This document shows, one piece after another, positions 32,456-40,509 of a stretch of 64,000 nucleotides of DNA (position 1 is its first letter; the number at the start of each line of letters is the position of its first letter). Where the stretch lies: positions 62,001 through 126,000 of the forward strand of contig NZ_PYGC01000002.1 in the NCBI RefSeq assembly GCF_003014495.1. Direction: 5' to 3'. Origin of the DNA: Prolixibacter denitrificans. GTDB taxonomy: Bacteria; Bacteroidota; Bacteroidia; Bacteroidales; Prolixibacteraceae. Made by a program: the position numbers and the translations under genes. The notes beneath the pieces are model-generated. The model saw nothing but the letters and a program-made list of their open reading frames with translations. It made no database searches and was not told where the DNA came from.

Positions 32456-32527
32456 GGCCCCATAGTTCAAGGGATAGAACGACAGTTTCCTAAACTGTAG
32501 ATCCAGGTTCGAGTCCTGGTGGGGCTA
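32456..32527 (+). tRNA. tRNA-Arg (anticodon CCU)
   Basis: The 72-nt cloverleaf has a 7-bp acceptor stem GGCCCCA/TGGGGCT (G-U first pair), D stem GTTC/GAAC, anticodon stem ACAGT/ACTGT around the loop TTCCTAA, a 4-nt variable region, T stem CCAGG/CCTGG with loop TTCGAGT, and discriminator A. The 3' CCA is not encoded. Its 3' end is the integration target of the element that follows. Confidence 0.95.
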
Positions 32528-32528
32528 C
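32519..32528 (+). repeat. left attachment core (attL)
   Basis: GTGGGGCTAC at the end of tRNA-Arg is identical to 39348-39357. Confidence 0.75.
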
Positions 32529-32529
32529 T

Positions 32530-32566
32530 GAGGAGTAGTATATTTATGCTACTCCTCTTGTTTTTA
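32530..32566 (+). terminator. element-supplied terminator after tRNA-Arg
   Basis: The 9-bp stem GAGGAGTAG/CTACTCCTC (32530-32538 with 32549-32557) is followed by TTGTTTTT. It lies inside the element, so it replaces the tRNA's displaced terminator. Confidence 0.75.
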
Positions 32567-32651
32567 AGGCGGTTTGTATATACCTTTCTTTCGATTTTAC
32601 CGCAAAATCACCGCAAATTAATCTACAAACCGCAAAAAAACGACAAAGAAA

Positions 32652-33812
32652 ATGAGCGTTATAACTAACTTAGGAAAGGTCAGAAATGATGGAACAGCCC
32701 CTGTTTACATTGTGACCTATGTAAATCGCGATAGAGTTCAATTTCTCACCCATGTATATTGCCATCCGGATAAGTTCGATAAAGTTAAAGGGAGAGTGAA
32801 AGGCAGAGGCAAAAGGGTTAATCAGCAAAACCTTATAATTGAAAATTGTAGATCCAGATTGAATAAGGTGTTTATTGATTATGAATTGCAGAATAAGAAA
32901 CTTACTCCCAAATTGCTAAAGAATGAGTACAACAACCCAGCACTGAGAATCGATTTTCACAAATTTCTGGAAGAGGCTATTAAAGAAAGAAAAGATGAAT
33001 CCGCTCCTCGAACCATTGCCCGGGATGAAGTCTTTCAGCGTCGACTGAAGGAATTTCGGAAAGAAATAGCATTCTCCGAGATTGATGCAGAATTTATTGA
33101 ATTGTTCCGTCGTTGGCTGAAAAAGGAGCATAAGAATGAGACAAACACCCTCCATAAACAGTTAAAAATTTTCCGGCTGTATCTGAATATCGCAAAAAGG
33201 AAGGGTATCATCAAAGAGAACCCGTTTGTGTCCATCAGGGTGAAGAAGCAAAAAACGGATCGGGTATTCCTGGAAGAAGATGAACTGCAGGAGCTCTGGG
33301 AAAGTTACCTAGAAGGAAAGTACATCGACAGTCCAGCCAAACACACAGTTTTGCGACATTTTCTGTTTATGTGCTTCACGGGTATGGACCACGGGGGATT
33401 AAGAGAATCGGTTCGTTTTGATAATATTTTCGGGAACACATTGGTTTTCGTCCGGGAAAAAACCATGACACAGAAAAAGGAAACCACCAAACTTCCCCTT
33501 ACGAGTAAAGCGATTCGTCTGATTGACGATGAAGGAAAGAAGGATGGAAATTGTTTTGCAGCTTACACAGAACCCAGAATGAACAAGGTTTTGAAGCAAA
33601 TTGCAGAAGACCACAAAATAAATAAGAGGGTTACCACCCATGTCGGCCGTCACACATTCGCAACGCTATTTATCCAGAAGACCGCGGATGTGGCAACGCT
33701 TCAAAAACTGTTAGGACATTCCAGCATTACCACGACTATGGTTTATGTCCATATTACTGACCAGCAAATCAATAAACAGATGAAACAGTTCGATGAACTG
33801 ATTGATTTCTGA
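32652..33812 (+). CDS. tyrosine-recombinase integrase
   Basis: This 386-residue site-specific recombinase has an N-terminal arm-binding-like domain (residues 1-100), a SAM-like core-binding domain (about 105-200), and a C-terminal catalytic domain. HVGRHTFATLF carries the His and Arg of the second box, LLGHSSITTTMVYVHI carries the later His and the nucleophilic Tyr. The first catalytic Arg (normally in TGLR) is absent, reading CFTGMDHGG. This loss is known in the IntDOT group of Bacteroidota integrases. It lies 124 bp inside attL, transcribed away from the tRNA, as expected for the enzyme that placed this element. Confidence 0.92.
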   Translation: MSVITNLGKVRNDGTAPVYIVTYVNRDRVQFLTHVYCHPDKFDKVKGRVKGRGKRVNQQNLIIENCRSRLNKVFIDYELQNKKLTPKLLKNEYNNPALRIDFHKFLEEAIKERKDESAPRTIARDEVFQRRLKEFRKEIAFSEIDAEFIELFRRWLKKEHKNETNTLHKQLKIFRLYLNIAKRKGIIKENPFVSIRVKKQKTDRVFLEEDELQELWESYLEGKYIDSPAKHTVLRHFLFMCFTGMDHGGLRESVRFDNIFGNTLVFVREKTMTQKKETTKLPLTSKAIRLIDDEGKKDGNCFAAYTEPRMNKVLKQIAEDHKINKRVTTHVGRHTFATLFIQKTADVATLQKLLGHSSITTTMVYVHITDQQINKQMKQFDELIDF

Positions 33813-33829
33813 TTTAATGAGACTGGAGG

Positions 33830-33865
33830 TCCCCAGCTGGCAACATTGCGACAGCTGGGGATTTT
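33830..33865. terminator. bidirectional terminator between integrase and the reverse cluster
   Basis: A perfect 10-bp stem TCCCCAGCTG/CAGCTGGGGA is followed by TTTT on the + strand. It lies 17 bp after the integrase stop and overlaps the end of the convergent gene. Confidence 0.75.
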
Positions 33866-34241
33866 AGCTTTGCCAAAAGTACGCGATTACCAGGACAGCC
33901 AAGCCCAGGTAAATATAAGACGAGACATCCTGTTGTGAGGTTCCGGAGCTGGCCCCATCGAGCTGGGCCGACTGATAATCTCTCTGGGCATTCATGTAAT
34001 CCAGGTTCTCAACGGTATCAATTCCAGAAACGATGCTGTCGCGATACTGTACCGCTCTTTCCCAATCTGCATAGGCCTGATTCATCGGTTTCAGAAAGTG
34101 TCTTTTCGCATATCCTTCATGACCCTTTGACACGCTTCCATCGTATCTTTCTTTTCGTTGTAAGTAGACATTCCAGGCGTCAACAATTGCCTGTTCGGCC
34201 GCTTGGATATCGGCACCGGTGTAATTCATAATATCATTCAT
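33864..34241 (-). CDS. small protein with C-terminal membrane helix
   Basis: This 125-residue protein is helical and Tyr/Ala-rich. Its C-terminal hydrophobic helix is SSYIYLGLAVLVIAYFWQS with no signal peptide, so it would be tail-anchored. I recognise no family. Candidate ATGs are at 34241 and 34229. In a phage-like element it could be a virion membrane or structural protein (inference only). Confidence 0.65.
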   Translation of the reverse strand: MNDIMNYTGADIQAAEQAIVDAWNVYLQRKERYDGSVSKGHEGYAKRHFLKPMNQAYADWERAVQYRDSIVSGIDTVENLDYMNAQRDYQSAQLDGASSGTSQQDVSSYIYLGLAVLVIAYFWQS

Positions 34242-34355
34242 TTTTTGATTTGAATTTGTTGTTTACACAAATATAGGGGTGAAGAAACATCCAACCTGTT
34301 GAATACTACTGTTTACTCCCAATATTTATATGAAGTTGGGCCGGTTCCTGGACAT

Positions 34356-34390
34356 AAAAAAAGGTCTACCGATTTGGAAGACCCTTTTTT
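34356..34390 (-). terminator. terminator of the 34408 gene
   Basis: GGTCT/AGACC flanked by A and T runs on both sides makes a hairpin usable on both strands. It is 18 bp after the reverse-strand stop codon. Confidence 0.65.
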
Positions 34391-34407
34391 ATGCGTTTTT
34401 CATGAAT

Positions 34408-34653
34408 TTACTTCTTTTTCATCTTGTTAAGAAAAACTTTTGTAGCAACGACAGTGGAAATAGCGTCAAATTTATCCCTTGCAGTAAATTCGTCAATATT
34501 TGCCAGAGAAATTAAATCGATGACCTTATTCAATGAATTAATAGTTGCATCAATAACAATGTTTTCTTCTTTCTGGTAAAACTTGATTTCTTCAATTGCT
34601 TCTTTAGAAAGCTCTATCCCGTTAACCTTTAACGTTTCATTTGTCTGTTCCAT
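34408..34653 (-). CDS. small hypothetical protein
   Basis: The 81-residue protein is predicted helical (KVNGIELSKEAIEEIKFYQK, then NSLNKVIDLISLANID) with a basic end (LNKMKKK). I chose the ATG at 34653, because upstream sequence to 34770 translates to hydrophobic AT-rich noise and lies in the promoter region. It is divergent from the ribbon-helix-helix gene. Family unknown. Confidence 0.6.
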   Translation of the reverse strand: MEQTNETLKVNGIELSKEAIEEIKFYQKEENIVIDATINSLNKVIDLISLANIDEFTARDKFDAISTVVATKVFLNKMKKK

Positions 34654-34788
34654 AACTGAATTATTAATTGATTCATGCTGTAAATTTATAAAATAATATA
34701 TTATAATAAAACAAATGTATAATAAATATATTATGACATATGATATTATTATATTATTTTCGTAGTACAAACAAATATTAAATACCTT
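34654..34788. promoter_or_regulatory. very AT-rich divergent promoter/operator region
   Basis: TAATATATTA (34694-34703) is palindromic. A near copy, AAATATATTA, lies about 30 bp away near 34724, and a related TTATTATATTATT stretch is near 34747. Sites repeated every few helical turns between a divergent ribbon-helix-helix gene and its neighbour suggest an autoregulated operator. Confidence 0.4.
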
Positions 34789-34947
34789 ATGACAAAGTCA
34801 GCCAAAACAATCACCGTTGATGAGGTTATCTGGGACAAGGTCAAAGAACAGGCCAAGAAGGAGAATCGTCCCATTAGTAATTTCGTGGAAACAGTCCTTA
34901 TTCGGTATTTCGATGAAATTGAAAAGAGTAAAGAACCCGGCCAATAA
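34789..34947 (+). CDS. ribbon-helix-helix (CopG/Arc-like) small protein
   Basis: The 52-residue protein has an N-terminal strand (AKTITVDEVIWDKVKEQAKK) followed by two helices (ENRPISNFVETVLIRYFDEIE), the pattern of ribbon-helix-helix DNA-binding dimers. It would normally repress from an adjacent operator. No toxin gene follows, so I do not call it an antitoxin. The terminator hairpin starts within its last codons and carries the stop codon in its loop. Confidence 0.65.
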   Translation: MTKSAKTITVDEVIWDKVKEQAKKENRPISNFVETVLIRYFDEIEKSKEPGQ

Positions 34948-34963
34948 CCGGGTTCTTCTCTTT
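34931..34963 (+). terminator. terminator overlapping the stop of the ribbon-helix-helix gene
   Basis: AAGAACCCGG pairs perfectly with CCGGGTTCTT (34931-34940 with 34948-34957). The 7-nt loop contains the stop codon, and a CTCTTTT tail follows. Confidence 0.8.
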
Positions 34964-35021
34964 TAAAATCAATCTATTCTCCTAACCCGGTCCAGTGCTC
35001 TCCAAAAAATTCTTTTCAGAT

Positions 35022-35276
35022 CTACTTCGATTCTTCTCTTTCCTCTCCTTGCTCCTTCAACCAGGAATCATCTTCGATAATTACCAGTTTATCAACTAAA
35101 AACCTGACCTGTGGAGGCAGTAGTATTTTCTGTCTTGGAAAATAACCCAGTTTCTTTAGTTCCGGATAATACCTGATGTTCAACCAGGTTCTCACTGTGG
35201 TGGCGGAAACGCCACATAATTTGGCCAATTCTCCTTTGGTTATGCACCGGTATCGATTATCACTGTTATTTTCCAT
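35022..35276 (-). CDS. small helix-turn-helix protein, DUF4248-like
   Basis: The 84-residue protein has an HTH of the excisionase/MerR kind (CITKGELAKLCGVSATTVRTWL), then KLGYFPRQKILLPPQVRFLVDKL and an acidic tail. This resembles the DUF4248 proteins of Bacteroidota mobile elements. It may act as an excisionase or a regulator. Its start overlaps the end of the preceding 42-codon gene by 11 nt. It is the last gene of the ATPase cluster. Confidence 0.7.
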   Translation of the reverse strand: MENNSDNRYRCITKGELAKLCGVSATTVRTWLNIRYYPELKKLGYFPRQKILLPPQVRFLVDKLVIIEDDSWLKEQGEEREESK

Positions 35277-35394
35277 CGAGGTTGTTGTATCTGTTCAAAA
35301 TTGACCGCATCCATGATGAATGTCCGGCATTGAAGCTCTGTTTGTAATTCCGGAGCTTCTTTTTGTGTTTCTTCCGGTTTCTTGATTTGGGCAT
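35266..35394 (-). CDS. very basic 42-residue protein
   Basis: The ATG at 35394 lies 11 nt after the stop of the preceding gene, and the frame ends 11 nt inside the next gene, so it fits the tight packing of the cluster. The protein is Lys/Arg-rich (PKSRNRKKHKKKLRNYKQ), followed by SFNAGHSSWMRSILNRYNNL. It resembles small nucleic-acid-condensing proteins of some phages in composition only. A TTG-initiated frame (35240-35443) covers the same bases, but I find this ATG frame more credible. Confidence 0.5.
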   Translation of the reverse strand: MPKSRNRKKHKKKLRNYKQSFNAGHSSWMRSILNRYNNLDGK

Positions 35395-35405
35395 GGCTGT
35401 AGGCT

Positions 35406-35612
35406 TTAAAATTTCCAAACTCTTTGCAGGCGAAAACCGGCAACTTTTACCAGGTAATCGATGCGGCCCCAGGAGCCGTTTCCAAGGTCACCGGCCCGAT
35501 GGGGTGATTTTGGGGAAATTACCGCGATGACTCCACCGGGCAGAATCTGGCAATCACGCTTTCGTTTTAAACTGGCTAATGCAGTGAAGGGGGTATGTTT
35601 CAGGTGCGACAT
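35406..35612 (-). CDS. 68-residue hypothetical protein
   Basis: The start lies 2 nt after the ATPase stop, which suggests coupled translation. The sequence is basic with Gly/Pro-rich parts (GGVIAVISPKSPHRAGDLGNG). I recognise no family and no membrane helix. Support comes from position and spacing. Confidence 0.5.
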   Translation of the reverse strand: MSHLKHTPFTALASLKRKRDCQILPGGVIAVISPKSPHRAGDLGNGSWGRIDYLVKVAGFRLQRVWKF

Positions 35613-35614
35613 GG

Positions 35615-36169
35615 TTAGGTTTTAATGATTTCGTAGTGGTGAATATTAGAATCGGATTCCTTGTTTACTCTCTGTTGAGCTTCGGCGATTTCATCGAAAT
35701 TCAGAATGACATTTTTCCTCCGGTTCACATTGTCTTTTGTCTTGAATAGGATGAATTCGGAGGCATTGGTAAATGCCTGGGGAGGCACATCAGTAAAACC
35801 GTGGCCGACCATGATAATATCAGTCATCTTTTGCCGGCGGCGGATATACATCCGTTTGAGTTCCGGACTGGTTACCGTAGTGAGGTATGCACGGCAGTCA
35901 TCAAAAACAATCAGGCCATCAAACCAAAATGCATTGATTTTCTTCAAAATTCTTTCATCTTCCCATACATACCGGCGGGCACCGATGTAATCAAAGTCTG
36001 TAGGTTTGTCCAACCTGGTAACCTCTAAATTATTCCACTCAGAATAATCCGGAGTGATGACCAAGACTTTGCCACCCCGGCTTATTTCGGATTCAACAAA
36101 TTTCCGGGTGAGCGTTGTTTTACCGGTACCATTGAACCCTAGCAGAATAATCTGTTTAGTTGTCCTCAT
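35615..36169 (-). CDS. P-loop ATPase of the packaging/HerA-FtsK type
   Basis: This 184-residue ATPase has Walker A GFNGTGKTTLT at residues 11-21 and Walker B GLIVFDDCRAY near 90. The following sensor-like segment is RRRQKMTDIIMVGHGFTDVPP, and the C-terminal part FILFKTKDN resembles the LFK.prD strand of viral genome-packaging ATPases (A32/PRD1-type) and Zot-like proteins. The family pumps DNA using ATP. No membrane helix is in the protein itself, but the overlapping upstream gene encodes one. It starts 14 nt inside that gene. Which virus group, if any, it belongs to needs profile comparison. Confidence 0.75.
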   Translation of the reverse strand: MRTTKQIILLGFNGTGKTTLTRKFVESEISRGGKVLVITPDYSEWNNLEVTRLDKPTDFDYIGARRYVWEDERILKKINAFWFDGLIVFDDCRAYLTTVTSPELKRMYIRRRQKMTDIIMVGHGFTDVPPQAFTNASEFILFKTKDNVNRRKNVILNFDEIAEAQQRVNKESDSNIHHYEIIKT

Positions 36170-36770
36170 CCTTTGTTTCCTCCTTAAGTTCCTGTACCTG
36201 TTGCTTGAGCTCGTTGATTTCCTTCTTCTTTTTCAGCTCTTTAATCTGTGATTCCAAATCGGCCGTTTTTTTACGCTCAGATTCTAATGCCAGGTTTACT
36301 TTCCTGATGCTGTTGGCAGCTCTAAACTTTTTGGTCATTACAATCAGTGTAAACACTGACGCGATAACCCATGGAGGAAGGTCCATCGATGAATACTGGA
36401 AGTAAACACCCCAATATTGAGCCAGTTCCTTTATATCAGCATCGTCGGCATAGAAGTCTTCCGGAGTCTGTGATTTTGCGTAAACAGCCAGAACAGTGGC
36501 TATTGTCTTGTCGAGAGTTTTGACAGCAAATTCAGCCGTTGTATTGCTTTGCTTTTTTTGAGCCTGACTAATCGGTTTTTGCTCTTCAAAATCTTCCTGA
36601 ACCGGAGTTTTTTCAAAAACCTCCTTTTCTTCCTGCATTTCGGAAAGAAGCCCGGCCAAGTCATCGTCTGAAGCGAAGGAATAGCCGCCTTTTGTTGCTG
36701 TAGCATCCTCACTTTCCAGTGTGGGTGCCACACTTTTAAGCTCATCAGGATTCACCATTCCTTTCCTCAT
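36156..36770 (-). CDS. membrane protein with coiled coil
   Basis: This 204-residue protein has an acidic low-complexity N-terminal half, one membrane helix (PPWVIASVFTLIVMTKKF, about residues 130-150), and a strong C-terminal coiled coil of KKK/EL heptads ending ETKDEDN. I chose the ATG at 36770 over the upstream TTG at 36776. It overlaps both neighbours. It could anchor the ATPase, which starts 14 nt before its stop, at the membrane (inference). Confidence 0.65.
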   Translation of the reverse strand: MRKGMVNPDELKSVAPTLESEDATATKGGYSFASDDDLAGLLSEMQEEKEVFEKTPVQEDFEEQKPISQAQKKQSNTTAEFAVKTLDKTIATVLAVYAKSQTPEDFYADDADIKELAQYWGVYFQYSSMDLPPWVIASVFTLIVMTKKFRAANSIRKVNLALESERKKTADLESQIKELKKKKEINELKQQVQELKEETKDEDN

Positions 36771-37047
36771 CGCCAATATTTTTCGTTAATAAATTTGACA
36801 GCCAGTCGACAAAGGGCCGGGCTTCAATCGTCCGGACAAAAGTTTTACCCGAGAAGGCTCCAATAACGATAAAGACATTCTCTCCGAAGATTTCAGTAAA
36901 AGCAGCTACATGTGTTTCTCCATCCTGAAGGGGGATTTTGTCCAGATACTTTTTGTAGGCTTCCTCTCCTTGCTTGAGATAGTTTTTGATGTTTGGGAGC
37001 TGGGTCCGGACGAACATTTGAACAATAGGGCTATCCAACATTAGCAT
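36745..37047 (-). CDS. 100-residue hypothetical protein
   Basis: The N-terminal half is helical (SPIVQMFVRTQLPNIKNYLKQGEEAYKKYLDKI). The C-terminal half is beta-rich with FIVIGAFSGKTFVRTIEARP. There is no signal and no known motif. It overlaps the upstream gene by 17 nt and the downstream gene by 26 nt. The second ATG, at 37041, is equally possible. Confidence 0.6.
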   Translation of the reverse strand: MLMLDSPIVQMFVRTQLPNIKNYLKQGEEAYKKYLDKIPLQDGETHVAAFTEIFGENVFIVIGAFSGKTFVRTIEARPFVDWLSNLLTKNIGDEERNGES

Positions 37048-37567
37048 GGTGTTTTGGCTGGTTGGACTTTCTTACCTTTTCAGCGATTTCCTGAATTTCT
37101 CTTGTGGACAGTACAAACGGGAAAAAGATTTCTGTTTCCTGCCGTGTGATATAGCGGTAAAACATATCGATTAACAGTTTACCCGGTGTCACCGGCTCTT
37201 TCAAATCTTTTGACAGTCGTTTACACGTTTCATTCAGCAATGCTGTTTGAATTGGAGAAAGTTTAATTCTTACCTCACCCGGTTTCGGTTCCCGTAAACT
37301 CGCGAGCTTTTCCGACAACTCCGTTTTTTGTGCCTCCAACATCGCACATTCATTGCTCAAGCGCTCAATCTCCCCCCGTGCTTCATTCTGCTTTCTTAAC
37401 TTCGTAGTGGAGATTTCAAGCATCCTAACCAATAGAAGACGGTTGTTAAGGTCATTGGGGTCGACGTCCGGTGCAATGTCAATTACAGACTCCTGGAACA
37501 TCTGGTGTTCATCCTGAGAAAGGCGAGCTGTAAACGGATTTTTTACTGTAAATTCTTTTTCACTCAT
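37031..37567 (-). CDS. coiled-coil hypothetical protein, first gene of the cluster
   Basis: This 178-residue protein has a coiled coil at about residues 55-95 (KQNEARGEIERLSNECAMLE) and a C-terminal part that reads like a small DNA-binding or interaction domain (VRIKLSPIQTALLNETCKRL). I chose the ATG at 37567 over a TTG at 37573. A palindromic operator-like sequence lies 33 bp upstream. No family recognised. Confidence 0.65.
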   Translation of the reverse strand: MSEKEFTVKNPFTARLSQDEHQMFQESVIDIAPDVDPNDLNNRLLLVRMLEISTTKLRKQNEARGEIERLSNECAMLEAQKTELSEKLASLREPKPGEVRIKLSPIQTALLNETCKRLSKDLKEPVTPGKLLIDMFYRYITRQETEIFFPFVLSTREIQEIAEKVRKSNQPKHHANVG

Positions 37568-37599
37568 AACCAAATTGTTTACTGATTGTGTACAAGTTT

Positions 37600-37617
37600 A
37601 CAGTATACTGTTAACAG
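37600..37617. promoter_or_regulatory. overlapping palindromes, candidate operator of the ATPase cluster
   Basis: ACAGTATACTGT (37600-37611) and CTGTTAACAG (37608-37617) are both perfect palindromes sharing CTGT. Together they give three alternating ACAGT/ACTGT half-sites, 33 bp upstream of the cluster's first gene. Confidence 0.5.
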
Positions 37618-37686
37618 TCATGACAGAAATGCAACAGATGCAATAATTGCAACATTTGTATCAAAATGCAATATGTTCCAAGGCGC

Positions 37687-37714
37687 AAAAAAAGCCCCGG
37701 CGGGGAGCCGGGGC
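37687..37714 (-). terminator. terminator of the HTH gene at 37761
   Basis: The 8-bp GC-rich stem GCCCCGGC/GCCGGGGC is followed on the reverse strand by seven T residues. It isolates this gene from the cluster beyond. Confidence 0.85.
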
Positions 37715-37760
37715 CGTGCAGAAAAAAACCAATCTAAAACATTACGGATAAAGACAGAAA

Positions 37761-37961
37761 TTATGAAGCAATAGCGGAGTGAAGATATTTGGCAACCTCT
37801 TCTTGGTCGACTTCAAAATATTCGCAATACTCTGAAATCGTTATAGGCTTTTTTGCTGATTTACCCAGTGCATCCCGGACCTGATTCAACAGCCGGGATG
37901 CAGTGGGGGAACTACACCCTTCCAATCGTGATACATCTGAGGGTTTGATATATAGTGGCAT
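37761..37961 (-). CDS. small helix-turn-helix protein
   Basis: This 66-residue protein has MPLYIKPSDVSRLEGCSSPT and ASRLLNQVRDALGK in the first helix-turn-helix, then a second HTH-like segment (ITISEYCEYFEVDQEEVAKYLH). Similar short regulators occur in Bacteroidota elements. The start is the ATG at 37961, because the upstream extension starts with TTG. The reverse-strand leader directly before this ATG contains ACCTACACC, the same hexamer that fills module 1 beyond, so the protein may bind that word (inference). Confidence 0.65.
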   Translation of the reverse strand: MPLYIKPSDVSRLEGCSSPTASRLLNQVRDALGKSAKKPITISEYCEYFEVDQEEVAKYLHSAIAS

Positions 37962-37963
37962 AG

Positions 37964-37972
37964 GTGTAGGTA
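37964..37972. promoter_or_regulatory. isolated GTAGGT word in front of the HTH gene
   Basis: GTGTAGGTA ends 3 bp before the start codon of the HTH gene, on the opposite strand. It matches the words of module 1, which starts 137 bp further on. Confidence 0.4.
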
Positions 37973-38108
37973 TTTTTAAAGGTTTTGGCACCCGCAATAT
38001 AATCAGTGTATCAGTGTTTTACAAAAAAAGTTTCGCAACTAAATCCGGGGAGAAAGTAAATCCGTTCTCGCGATCTAAATCATAAAAAGAACCCCTGTCG
38101 AAAAAGCC

Positions 38109-38374
38109 ACCTACGTTACCTACACACCTCGAAATTTTGCTTTAATAAGCTTTCATACAGCAGATTAATCTGTAGGTAAGATTTACCTACACCCCTAAAA
38201 CCGTAGGTAAAGAGTGTCGTTTTGTAGGTAAACCTACATTTCAACTGTTTTTACCTACATTTCAATCTATTTCACCTACATCTACCTACGCTTCGAAATA
38301 AGTTAATTAACTGTAATATATATGATAATTAATTATATAACTTTTAATAAGTAGTAAGTGTAGGTAGTGTAGGT
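38109..38374 (+). ncRNA. word-repeat module 1 (ACCTAC/GTAGGT), candidate structured RNA or iteron array
   Basis: ACCTAC occurs at 38109, 38118, 38185, 38232, 38253, 38274 and 38284. Its complement GTAGGT occurs at 38172, 38203, 38224, 38360 and 38369. TGTAGGTAA-GAT-TTACCTACA at 38171-38191 is a perfect 9-bp hairpin. The first pair (ACCTAC-3 nt-ACCTAC-AC) can pair with the last pair (GT-GTAGGT-3 nt-GTAGGT), closing the whole 266 bases. There is no ORF. Function unknown. Confidence 0.6.
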
Positions 38375-38426
38375 AATTATTTTCACGCCTTTCGGCAAAT
38401 TTAAATTAGCACCCATTAAAAAAACC

Positions 38427-38525
38427 GGCTACATCGGCTACACTCCCAAAAACTCCACACAACAAGCTAATTATCAGCAATTTCACATGTAGCCAGTATA
38501 TTGGCTACACCTATGAACCGTAGCC
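38427..38525 (+). ncRNA. word-repeat module 2 (GGCTAC/GTAGCC), truncated
   Basis: GGCTAC at 38427, 38436 and 38503, with GTAGCC at 38489 and 38520. Start intervals of 9, 53, 14 and 17 match the first intervals of modules 1 and 3 (9, 54, 13, 18). TGTAGCCA-6 nt-TGGCTACA (38488-38509) is a perfect hairpin. The rest of the module is missing, so it looks like a 5' fragment. Confidence 0.5.
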
Positions 38526-38629
38526 AGGTAACATATACTCACGTTGAAAACTCTTTTAGTGGACTCAAAATTTTTGACGTCGTACTTTGTAACTAAAGAA
38601 AAAATAAAAGTGATACCGAAAAAAAAAGC

Positions 38630-38895
38630 GGCTACACCGGCTACGCCCCCTGTGAATTTACTTTAAAAAGCATACTATCAGAACACTACACCGTAGCCAA
38701 TCACCGGCTACACCCTCAAAACCGTAGCCAAATGAGGGTTAAACGTAGCCACCGGCAACAAATGTATGGTCATTGGCTACACAAGGCGCCTTTTTGGCTA
38801 CGGTCGGCTACGGTAAAACACACTATACCAATAATTATATAACTAATAATCAATAATAAAACTTTTAATAAGTCTTTAGTGTAGCCACTGTAGCC
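38630..38895 (+). ncRNA. word-repeat module 3 (GGCTAC/GTAGCC), full length
   Basis: GGCTAC at 38630, 38639, 38706, 38775, 38796 and 38806; GTAGCC at 38693, 38724, 38745, 38881 and 38890. It is the same length as module 1 (266 bp), and its word spacing matches except for 1-bp shifts and one missing extra word. The first and last pairs can form a closing helix, and the + strand continues GGGTTTTTT, like an intrinsic terminator. A shared CTTTTAATAAGT precedes the last pair in both full modules. Confidence 0.6.
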
Positions 38896-38921
38896 GGGTT
38901 TTTTACTTACACAATCAAAAA

Positions 38922-39023
38922 ATGAAAAGTCGTAATAGAAACGGCGGTTTACGCAACCTTTCGCAGCATCAAATACAAGGTTTTCAACATCCGGAGCTTT
39001 CTTTCAACTACGAACATAGTTAA
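38922..39023 (+). CDS. possible 33-codon ORF after module 3
   Basis: An ATG 27 bp after module 3 opens a 33-residue frame (starting MKSRNRNGGLRNLSQHQIQG) that ends at 39023. It may be a leader peptide or the remnant start of a deleted gene. Nothing else supports it. Confidence 0.2.
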   Translation: MKSRNRNGGLRNLSQHQIQGFQHPELSFNYEHS

Positions 39024-39347
39024 CCCCATGCCCAGATATTACATTAAAGGGGGTTCGGGGGAATTTTAAGAGTAATTGAGTAAGGACAACTAAAAGGTGT
39101 TCGCCTTACCAGGCTCACGACAATAAAACGGCCCTTCCGGGCCATGGTTAGAAATCAAGATGGGAAGCAGCCTGGCGCGGTCCTGTAATGAAAAACGACA
39201 TTCAGTTTCCGTCCCGAAATACTTTTCTCCGGAGCCTCTCAACACACATAAACCAGCCTTTTCCGCAAAACATGCCGCAAAATAGGTTTTTATTTTCTTG
39301 CTATTAAACTGTTTTTAAAATACTTGCAGACAATTATTTATGTTCTA

Positions 39348-39357
39348 GTGGGGCTAC
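39348..39357 (+). repeat. right attachment core (attR)
   Basis: GTGGGGCTAC is identical to the tRNA-Arg 3' end at 32519-32528, and is followed directly by a terminator hairpin as expected for the original tRNA downstream sequence. Confidence 0.75.
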
Positions 39358-39501: not shown

Positions 39502-40509
39502 TTATTCTTTCTTTCTGGATTTTATTTCCTGTTCAATTTCCTTCAAATCCTGTTCATCGGCCTGTCGCGCTTCCCAGGCTTTTCGCTTCGAATCAAATTG
39601 TTCGTAAATTTCTCTTACCTTCTTCTCCATTATCGCATTGCTAATGGTGCCTTTTCCCCGAAGAATCTTTTGATCATTAAAATCCAAAATCCGATCGACA
39701 TTTTCTCTCCAAAAAGAGATGGTCAAGTCAAGCCTGTTTTTCGCTCGCAACTCGGCACTTTCCAGGAAAATGACAACTAAACGGTTGAGGGTATCTATCT
39801 CATCTGCTGTGAGGTAATTTTTAGCCGTGAAAATATCGCCTTTCCGAACAATGCTTCCTTTCCATGAAGTTAAATTCATATTAGGCGCATCAGCACTGGC
39901 CCGCGAAACAATAATCTCAGCCGCAGTTTTACCTGTGACGGCATACAGCAACTTATTTTGTGTCTCTGCAAAGAACATTTGCGTTGCTTTATCGGAAGAA
40001 TCGTAATCACTGCTTAATGAAAAAAGGTCGCGAACTTTCTGGTAGAAACGTTTTTCTGATGCCCGTATATCCCGAATACGACTTAAGAGCTCATCAAAGT
40101 AGTCGGGTCTCCCGTCCGGGTTTTTCAAACGTTCATCATCCATTACAAAGCCCTTAATCATGTATTCTTTCAGGTTGCGATTTGCCCACATTCGGAATTG
40201 CGTTCCTCTTTTGCTCCGCACCCGAAAGCCTATCGCCAAAATCACATCAAGCGCATAAAATGTTACACTATATTCCTTGCCATCTGCAGCAGTTGTTAAG
40301 TAATTCTTAACAACTGATTTATCATACAACTCCCCCTCTTTCAATATGTTGGATATGTGCATACTGATATTGGGAACCGAGGTGTCAAAAAGTTCTGCCA
40401 GCTGACTTTGGTTCATCCACACACTCCCATCTTTAGCATAAAGGGATACGGAAGCCCTACCGTCAGGCGTGTTGTAAATGATAATATTTTGCAAGTTATC
40501 TTGTTCCAT
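39502..40509 (-). CDS. RhuM-family protein
   Basis: This 335-residue protein of the virulence RhuM family has an N-terminal winged/Fic-associated DNA-binding-like part (IIIYNTPDGRASVSLYAKDG, VWMNQSQLAELFDTSVPNIS), the conserved VTFYALDVILAIGFRVRSKRGTQFR region (described, not a full motif) and WANRNLKEYMIKGFVMDDERL. The C-terminal half contains TAKNYLTADEIDTLNRLV. RhuM proteins occur on islands and mobile DNA, and their biochemical role is unsettled. It lies 114 bp outside attR, so it is not part of the element as bounded here. It is monocistronic. Confidence 0.85.
   Translation of the reverse strand: MEQDNLQNIIIYNTPDGRASVSLYAKDGSVWMNQSQLAELFDTSVPNISMHISNILKEGELYDKSVVKNYLTTAADGKEYSVTFYALDVILAIGFRVRSKRGTQFRMWANRNLKEYMIKGFVMDDERLKNPDGRPDYFDELLSRIRDIRASEKRFYQKVRDLFSLSSDYDSSDKATQMFFAETQNKLLYAVTGKTAAEIIVSRASADAPNMNLTSWKGSIVRKGDIFTAKNYLTADEIDTLNRLVVIFLESAELRAKNRLDLTISFWRENVDRILDFNDQKILRGKGTISNAIMEKKVREIYEQFDSKRKAWEARQADEQDLKEIEQEIKSRKKE

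Follow-up and report, generated by a model that had tools for sequence, protein, structure and literature searches.

The window analysed here is a stretch of 64,000 nucleotides from Prolixibacter denitrificans, and within it a small element is integrated at the 3' end of a tRNA-Arg gene (Table 1). In the sister genome G001, whose sequence is 96% identical to the left flank and 92% identical to the right flank, the tRNA runs straight into the sequence to the right of position 39357: this is an empty site. RhuM (39502-40509) and aconitase lie outside the element. Several small, possibly DNA-binding proteins are encoded within it, and the reading frames of the integrase, the ATPase and the operon upstream of the ATPase are all open. 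No recognisable initiator or capsid domain was found in the 11 element ORFs tested; a search of the whole host genome with PF19263 alone gave no match. Inspection by eye shows GTTTACA-like repeats and a near-palindrome at 37578-37620, just upstream of the gene at 37031-37573; similar words, operator-like in appearance, precede that gene in some relatives.

Table 1. Features of the element and of its three repeat modules (positions in the window).
Feature	Position	Strand	Remarks
Left attachment core GTGGGGCTAC	32519-32528	+	3' end of tRNA-Arg(CCT) 32456-32528
Element	32529-39357		6829 bp; ends fixed by empty site in sister genome G001
Tyrosine integrase	32652-33812	+	PF13102, PF00589, PF17293
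Small helix-turn-helix-like protein	35022-35276	-	Beside ATPase in 20/20 loci; Pfam matches below cut-off
Small P-loop ATPase	35615-36169	-	Marker gene for relatives; weak family matches only
Three genes upstream of ATPase	36156-36776, 36745-37047, 37031-37573	-	In 19/20, 12/20 and 17/20 loci compared
Small protein adjoining module 1	37761-37997	-	Relatives in two other loci; no confident family
Module 1, intact array of putative iterons	38109-38374	.	12 ACCTAC/GTAGGT words, order >><><<>>>><<
Module 1 right arm, AT-rich	38290-38359	.	83% AT; candidate melting region
Module 2, truncated array, left half only	38427-38525	.	5 GGCTAC/GTAGCC words
Module 3, intact array of putative iterons	38630-38895	.	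11 GGCTAC/GTAGCC words, order >><><<>>><<
Module 3 right arm, AT-rich	38812-38880	.	81% AT; candidate melting region
Right attachment core GTGGGGCTAC	39348-39357	+	Duplicate of left core

Modules 1 and 3 are each 266 bp long and share a layout: an outer pair of words, an arm, a central cluster, an AT-rich arm and a second outer pair. Words start at 38109, 38118, 38172, 38185, 38203, 38224, (38232), 38253, 38274, 38284, 38360 and 38369 in module 1 (the word in brackets is the extra one) and at 38630, 38639, 38693, 38706, 38724, 38745, 38775, 38796, 38806, 38881 and 38890 in module 3. A preliminary description of this DNA had reported that the two modules agree in length, word order and intervals, and that the hexamer is switched from one to the other; on recount the intervals and lengths that it gives proved exact, the spacing of the two modules being nearly identical, and every word of module 1 is ACCTAC/GTAGGT, every word of module 3 GGCTAC/GTAGCC. 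Corresponding words, 11 in number, always differ in their first two letters (AC vs. GG) and always agree in CTAC. Since the words of module 2 (intervals 9, 53, 14, 17) are also GGCTAC, the hexamer difference sets module 1 apart from modules 2 and 3. The right arms are 81-83% AT, the left arms 60-69% and the element 59%. The modules had been called noncoding, and among ORFs of at least 40 aa only two (42 and 40 aa) overlap 38109-38895. The arrays are not due to chance: they score (-log10 Poisson) 22.0 for module 1 and 20.3 for module 3, whereas two Markov-2 simulations of the region gave 4.9 and 5.7, and 70 simulations no more than 8.2. A five-word CTAC/GTAG spacing pattern is matched within the 64 kb by modules 1 and 3 only, and by nothing in 100 shuffles. 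Because 113 of 189 aligned spacer positions (~60%) are identical, we regard modules 1 and 3 as homologous – by the evidence of their sequences, diverged copies of one ancestor.

Homologous arrays share words and spacing, not alignable sequence. A BLASTN search of the modules against 298 relatives gave only short, weak matches beyond the window (next best 5e-5); at E <= 0.01 there were matches in 48 of the 298 genomes, own genome included. The first spacing pattern had no match in viral contigs, and a pattern based on the AT-rich tail matched 11 contigs in which the first detector found no array.

Relatives were sought through the ATPase, in 199 genomes at E <= 1e-3 and in two sets of 395 genomes at E <= 1e-6; matches were found in 9, 15 and 2 genomes, respectively, each count including the own genome (the match in G726 was left out of the loci studied). 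At least 11 ATPase loci lie in genome contigs and at least three in viral contigs. Genes were compared one by one across 20 loci (the window, L023-L025, L027, L028 and L060-L073): all 20 carry the ATPase and the small helix-turn-helix-like protein, and 17 carry a capsid-like gene (cluster 4), which was not found in the window, L024 or L068 (the last of which ends shortly after the ATPase). The members L060-L073 are small virus-like elements, mostly from contigs titled Bacteroidota, that have a capsid-like protein and the small P-loop ATPase in common. An AlphaFold model of the capsid-like protein contains beta strands (pLDDT 71); in a Foldseek search nothing in the PDB reached E <= 0.001, and viral coat proteins figure, with low TM-scores, among the top weak matches. 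Three ATPases tried against the phage collection (window, L072, L065) matched nothing there. At the same tRNA-Arg in a genome of the same genus, G003, a related element (L024, 9100-13600) has broken integrase and ATPase frames, and no array was found in it; one of its ORFs, on inspection by eye, resembles a group II intron reverse transcriptase.

Clear arrays with other words were found in 12 of the 34 other ATPase loci scanned (33 distinct; L025 and L061 are the same contig). Their scores range from 11.6 to 28.4, against a top simulated score of 8.2, and they lie ~1.6-3.9 kb upstream of the ATPase, compared to 1.9 kb in the window. ORFs that overlap these arrays are short (up to 110 aa), and the words include ATCTACA, AGTGCAT, AAGTAGTTA and TGTTGATT. 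Closest in anatomy is L072, with word ATCTACA, order >><<<<>>><<, intervals 9, 62, 10, 21, 20, 50, 20, 20, 49 and 9, and a total of 277 bp. Several further arrays were left out: L080 (score 14.6), a tandem repeat largely within a gene, at a locus whose Rep_trans-like gene (just below cut-off) accordingly does not count as an exception; L064 (10.3), inside an ORF and at a great distance from the ATPase; L074 (12.5), within a frame of 267 codons; L077 (9.9), partly in an ORF; L023 (9.2), with a 76-bp span ~6 kb from the ATPase; and, as borderline, L027 (8.3) and L028 (8.1), where arrays are visible by eye. In L067 a second strong array (727-1005; TATTACA/TGTAATA, score 18.3) lies ~5.7 kb from the first.

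In nine of these 12 relatives one of the encoded proteins matches DUF5906 or VapE of Pfam (those of L068 and L069 fall below the curated cut-off and belong to the same BLAST cluster as L066, which is above it). The remaining three are L075, with initiator-gene fragments detected by HMM, L072, with a primase-like gene, and L073, where the contig end cuts the locus. The distance from array to initiator gene is ~1.9-3.4 kb in L027, L066, L067 and L069. No array was found in L025/L061. Its replication protein has an HUH motif and matches Rep_1 weakly, and inspection by eye adds a single-strand binding protein, so that replication genes seem to be exchanged within the ATPase-bearing family.

To avoid the bias of starting from arrays, loci from the host family were chosen by PF19263 (the DUF5906 helicase domain) alone, before any array had been viewed. 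PF19263 matched 40 of 140 genomes, with 56 places listed; of these, 40 were fetched. HMMs confirmed the helicase in 33 of them, and the sequence available sufficed for 31 genes. Within a window of 340 bp, starting 60 bp before the gene end, an array with a score of at least 8 was present at the 3' end of 17 of the 31 helicase genes and of none of 117 other ORFs (Fisher 3e-14, for loci that are not independent). The cut-off of 8 was chosen after a first view of the helicase-locus arrays; at 7 or more the counts for helicase genes and other ORFs are 17 and 2, and at 6 or more 18 and 2. At least one of the 117 controls (L271, score 7.8) is a PF19263 gene missed by the HMMs, and was kept in, which is conservative. 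Relative to the end of the ORF, the array starts anywhere from 13 bp upstream to 124 bp downstream in 14 of the 17 cases, and 30, 59 and 107 bp upstream in the remaining three. No array with a score of at least 8 was found at the other 14 of the 31 initiator genes; L286 is without one although it is 65% identical to L287, which has one.

Pattern scans of viral contigs for the two words of the window led to 127 loci, 34 of them with arrays (6 inside long ORFs). A DUF5906/VapE-type helicase was found at 10 of the 34 array loci, at none of 67 loci without an array and at 3 of 26 in between; the HMMs used detected no helicase at 24 of the 34. Of ten proteins near arrays without such a helicase, those from L105, L165 and L103 carry primase or helicase domains, and the other seven have no domain, a methylase or a terminase. 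In two longer stretches, L221 and L223, a DUF6371 and a DnaG-type primase gene stand ahead of the array; the primase genes beside such arrays are, in all, of DnaG, Prim-Pol/AAA_25 or DUF6371 type.

The spacing of the window modules (9-54...75-9) recurs beside initiator genes: word starts in L266 are spaced 9-54 and, on the right side, 76-9, and those in L295 9-55...52-9. Both of these initiators have arrays of GGAAC(A), while the initiators of L263, L265, L267 and L269 have arrays of TGTAAC. Five full-length proteins of one orthologue group were aligned, L263, L265 and L269 vs. L266 and L295. The helicase core (alignment blocks 361-600) is 88-99% identical within as well as between word groups; in the last two blocks (641-718, ~80 columns) identity is 41% and 27% between word groups and 74% and 64% within them. 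Smaller between-group drops are also present in the N-terminal half (columns 121-160 and 201-240). By sequence, this one orthologue group agrees with an iteron specificity that follows the C-terminal domain of the initiator. The change from TGTAAC to GGAACA is, so far as the sequences tell, the same kind of event as that between modules 1 and 3, with the protein attached. Close initiators share a word where both have an array (L258/L293, L275/L292, L289/L290, L283/L287). The word of L289 and L290, both from the host family, is TAGGTA, which overlaps the GTAGGTAA of module 1: a possible lead to an initiator, not proof. No initiator with the exact words of the window was found, the patterns matching only the own genome among 273 relatives.

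The arrays, the switching of their words, their position behind initiator genes and the divergence of the C-terminal end can be read directly from the sequences. The modules themselves are very probably double-stranded DNA replication origins, in which the word would be an iteron for the C-terminal domain of a self-loading initiator. The origin would be of SaPI/PICI type, its words most likely iterons read by that domain. The initiator would be a self-loading primase-helicase of the D5/DUF5906 or VapE-like type, which we take to belong to superfamily SF3; a structural model of the L065 initiator reached a mean pLDDT of 54.5, and no conclusion is based on it. It would bind the outer word pairs (9 bp apart, about one helical turn) and the central cluster, assemble as hexamers and melt the AT-rich arm, whereupon replication would start. 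Words would occur in both orientations because they are single sites on both sides of a nearly mirror-symmetric origin, and not because they pair. When the C-terminal specificity of the initiator changes all words must follow, which would account for the concerted switch from ACCTAC to GGCTAC. Since no initiator was found in the element, its origins would be either used in trans or left over from an ancestor that had one. The preliminary description had stated that the element has no identified origin or initiator: for the initiator this stands (11 ORFs, and PF19263 across the genome), while the modules are probably origins.

For the switch itself it had offered two explanations, base pairing and a co-evolving binding protein. 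The protein is supported by other, internally consistent words elsewhere, by arrays that abut initiator-helicase genes and by a word switch that accompanies a diverged initiator C-terminal end; homologous modules with a different but consistent word, to which the preliminary description had looked for a decision, turned up both in relatives and behind initiator genes. Pairing is not needed. According to this account the modules are structured RNA or folded single-stranded DNA, and conservation acts on the pairing between inverted words; both modules do fold stably through their inverted words (MFE -74.0 and -79.5 kcal/mol; + strand, RNA parameters). Shuffling the spacers around unchanged words has a small effect whose direction agrees across four tests (z -1.1 to -1.9), and structure may contribute a little; scrambling the words has a much larger effect (z -5.3 to -8.5), so that folding energy as RNA depends on the words and little on the spacers. 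Pairing would, moreover, let each helix keep a sequence of its own, whereas within a module all words have switched to the same sequence, and such identity fits a common reader, so that RNA structure is not required. Arrays also follow the ends of initiator genes, and a check against Rfam, proposed at the outset, came out negative (8 matches up to E 5, none at gathering score). We give folding the slimmest chance of the readings weighed here. That the modules are an operator, partition or packaging site for a DNA-binding protein of the element itself, such as one of its small helix-turn-helix-like proteins or a packaging partner of the ATPase, is also quite improbable. It would suit the arrays that lie upstream of the conserved operon in relatives, as well as the several small possible DNA-binding proteins of the element; yet similar arrays abut initiator genes in loci found by helicase or DNA pattern and not by the ATPase, and two words in one element are a poor fit to a single cognate protein. 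Integrase arm-type sites are usually few; the modules, with 11-12 sites each and at their distance from the attachment core, are unlike them, and this candidate was set aside.

If the modules are origins, the element itself may be read in two ways. Within the origin reading, with which its odds overlap, there is a slightly better than even chance that the element is a relic, descended from a virus, that has lost its capsid and initiator genes and retains unused leftovers of two initiator types. Neither the cluster 4 capsid-like gene nor an initiator was found in it, the G003 element at the same tRNA is degraded and without an array, and module 2 is truncated. A relic does not, however, sit easily with integrase, ATPase and operon frames that are open, nor with a word that is exact at all 11 corresponding positions while the spacers differ at ~40% of aligned positions. 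The other way, which we consider rather doubtful, is that capsid-encoding viruses serve the element, as their satellite, for helpers: a set of origins differing in iteron word would replace the initiator, any helper's initiator would replicate the satellite, and words would switch as the C-terminal domains of helpers diverge. Among 273 relatives no helper with the words of the window was found. A rescan of 86 loci for more than one array showed the window alone to have two adjacent arrays with scores above 20 and different words; L067, L068, L072, L076 and L078 have a second word cluster with a score of at least 8.5, and these, judged by word, position or low complexity, do not seem to have diverged from a copy of the first. 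The relic is held to be the more likely of the two.

Natural, matched origin-initiator pairs that differ in iteron and C-terminal end but keep the helicase core make the joint change in specificity of an initiator and a dozen scattered sites directly testable. They also suggest that origin arrays could be used to locate the initiator partners of small mobile elements. If the satellite reading is true, the origins of the window element would serve more than one helper, which can be put to the test. A literature search on iterons with Bacteroidota primase-helicases returned no paper on the subject by title, and in the literature examined we found no description of an initiator-less element with two iteron words; in this respect the element appears to be a variant.

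Comparison with known systems draws on extracts of the papers cited. In PICI origins an AT-rich region is flanked by two iteron sets (PMC6092414), and the C-terminal domain of the SaPI Rep recognises iterons directly downstream of the Rep gene (PMC7581432). The modules resemble these origins, which are served by Rep or Pri-Rep (PMC7581432, PMC6092414), in their AT-rich stretches and in their many short copies of the putative iteron (12 and 11 exact words, each in 266 bp), and in many other elements found here the array is directly downstream of a helicase initiator gene, as in SaPIs and PICIs. The window element differs in that no initiator was found (11 element ORFs were tested for a primase/initiator of its own, pri-rep), so that its arrays have no place directly 3' of such a gene; in its two words; and in the outer pair-arm-cluster-arm-outer pair layout, which gives three word groups where PICI origins have two iteron sets. 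SCCmec Cch2 is similar in being a D5-related helicase with a putative short-repeat origin beside its gene, to which its C-terminal domain binds in isolation, and different in that the iteron is AAGTG, in direct repeats, and the initiator is encoded within the element (PMC7581432). Phage P4 alpha is likewise, by description and not by sequence, a primase-helicase initiator acting on its own cognate origin; unlike the window element, P4 encodes its initiator (PMC6092414). PICMI (PMC10803314) and PLE (PMC7145576) are, as the window element may be, small integrated elements dependent on a helper phage, and PLE needs the helper for replication in addition to its own initiator (PMC7145576). PICMI, however, encodes a primase (PMC10803314), and the initiator of PLE is a RepA (PMC7145576). 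Neither was found in the window element, whose mobility is putative. The kind of origin, as far as these extracts go, is one already known from SaPIs and PICIs (PMC6092414) and, putatively, from SCCmec (PMC7581432).
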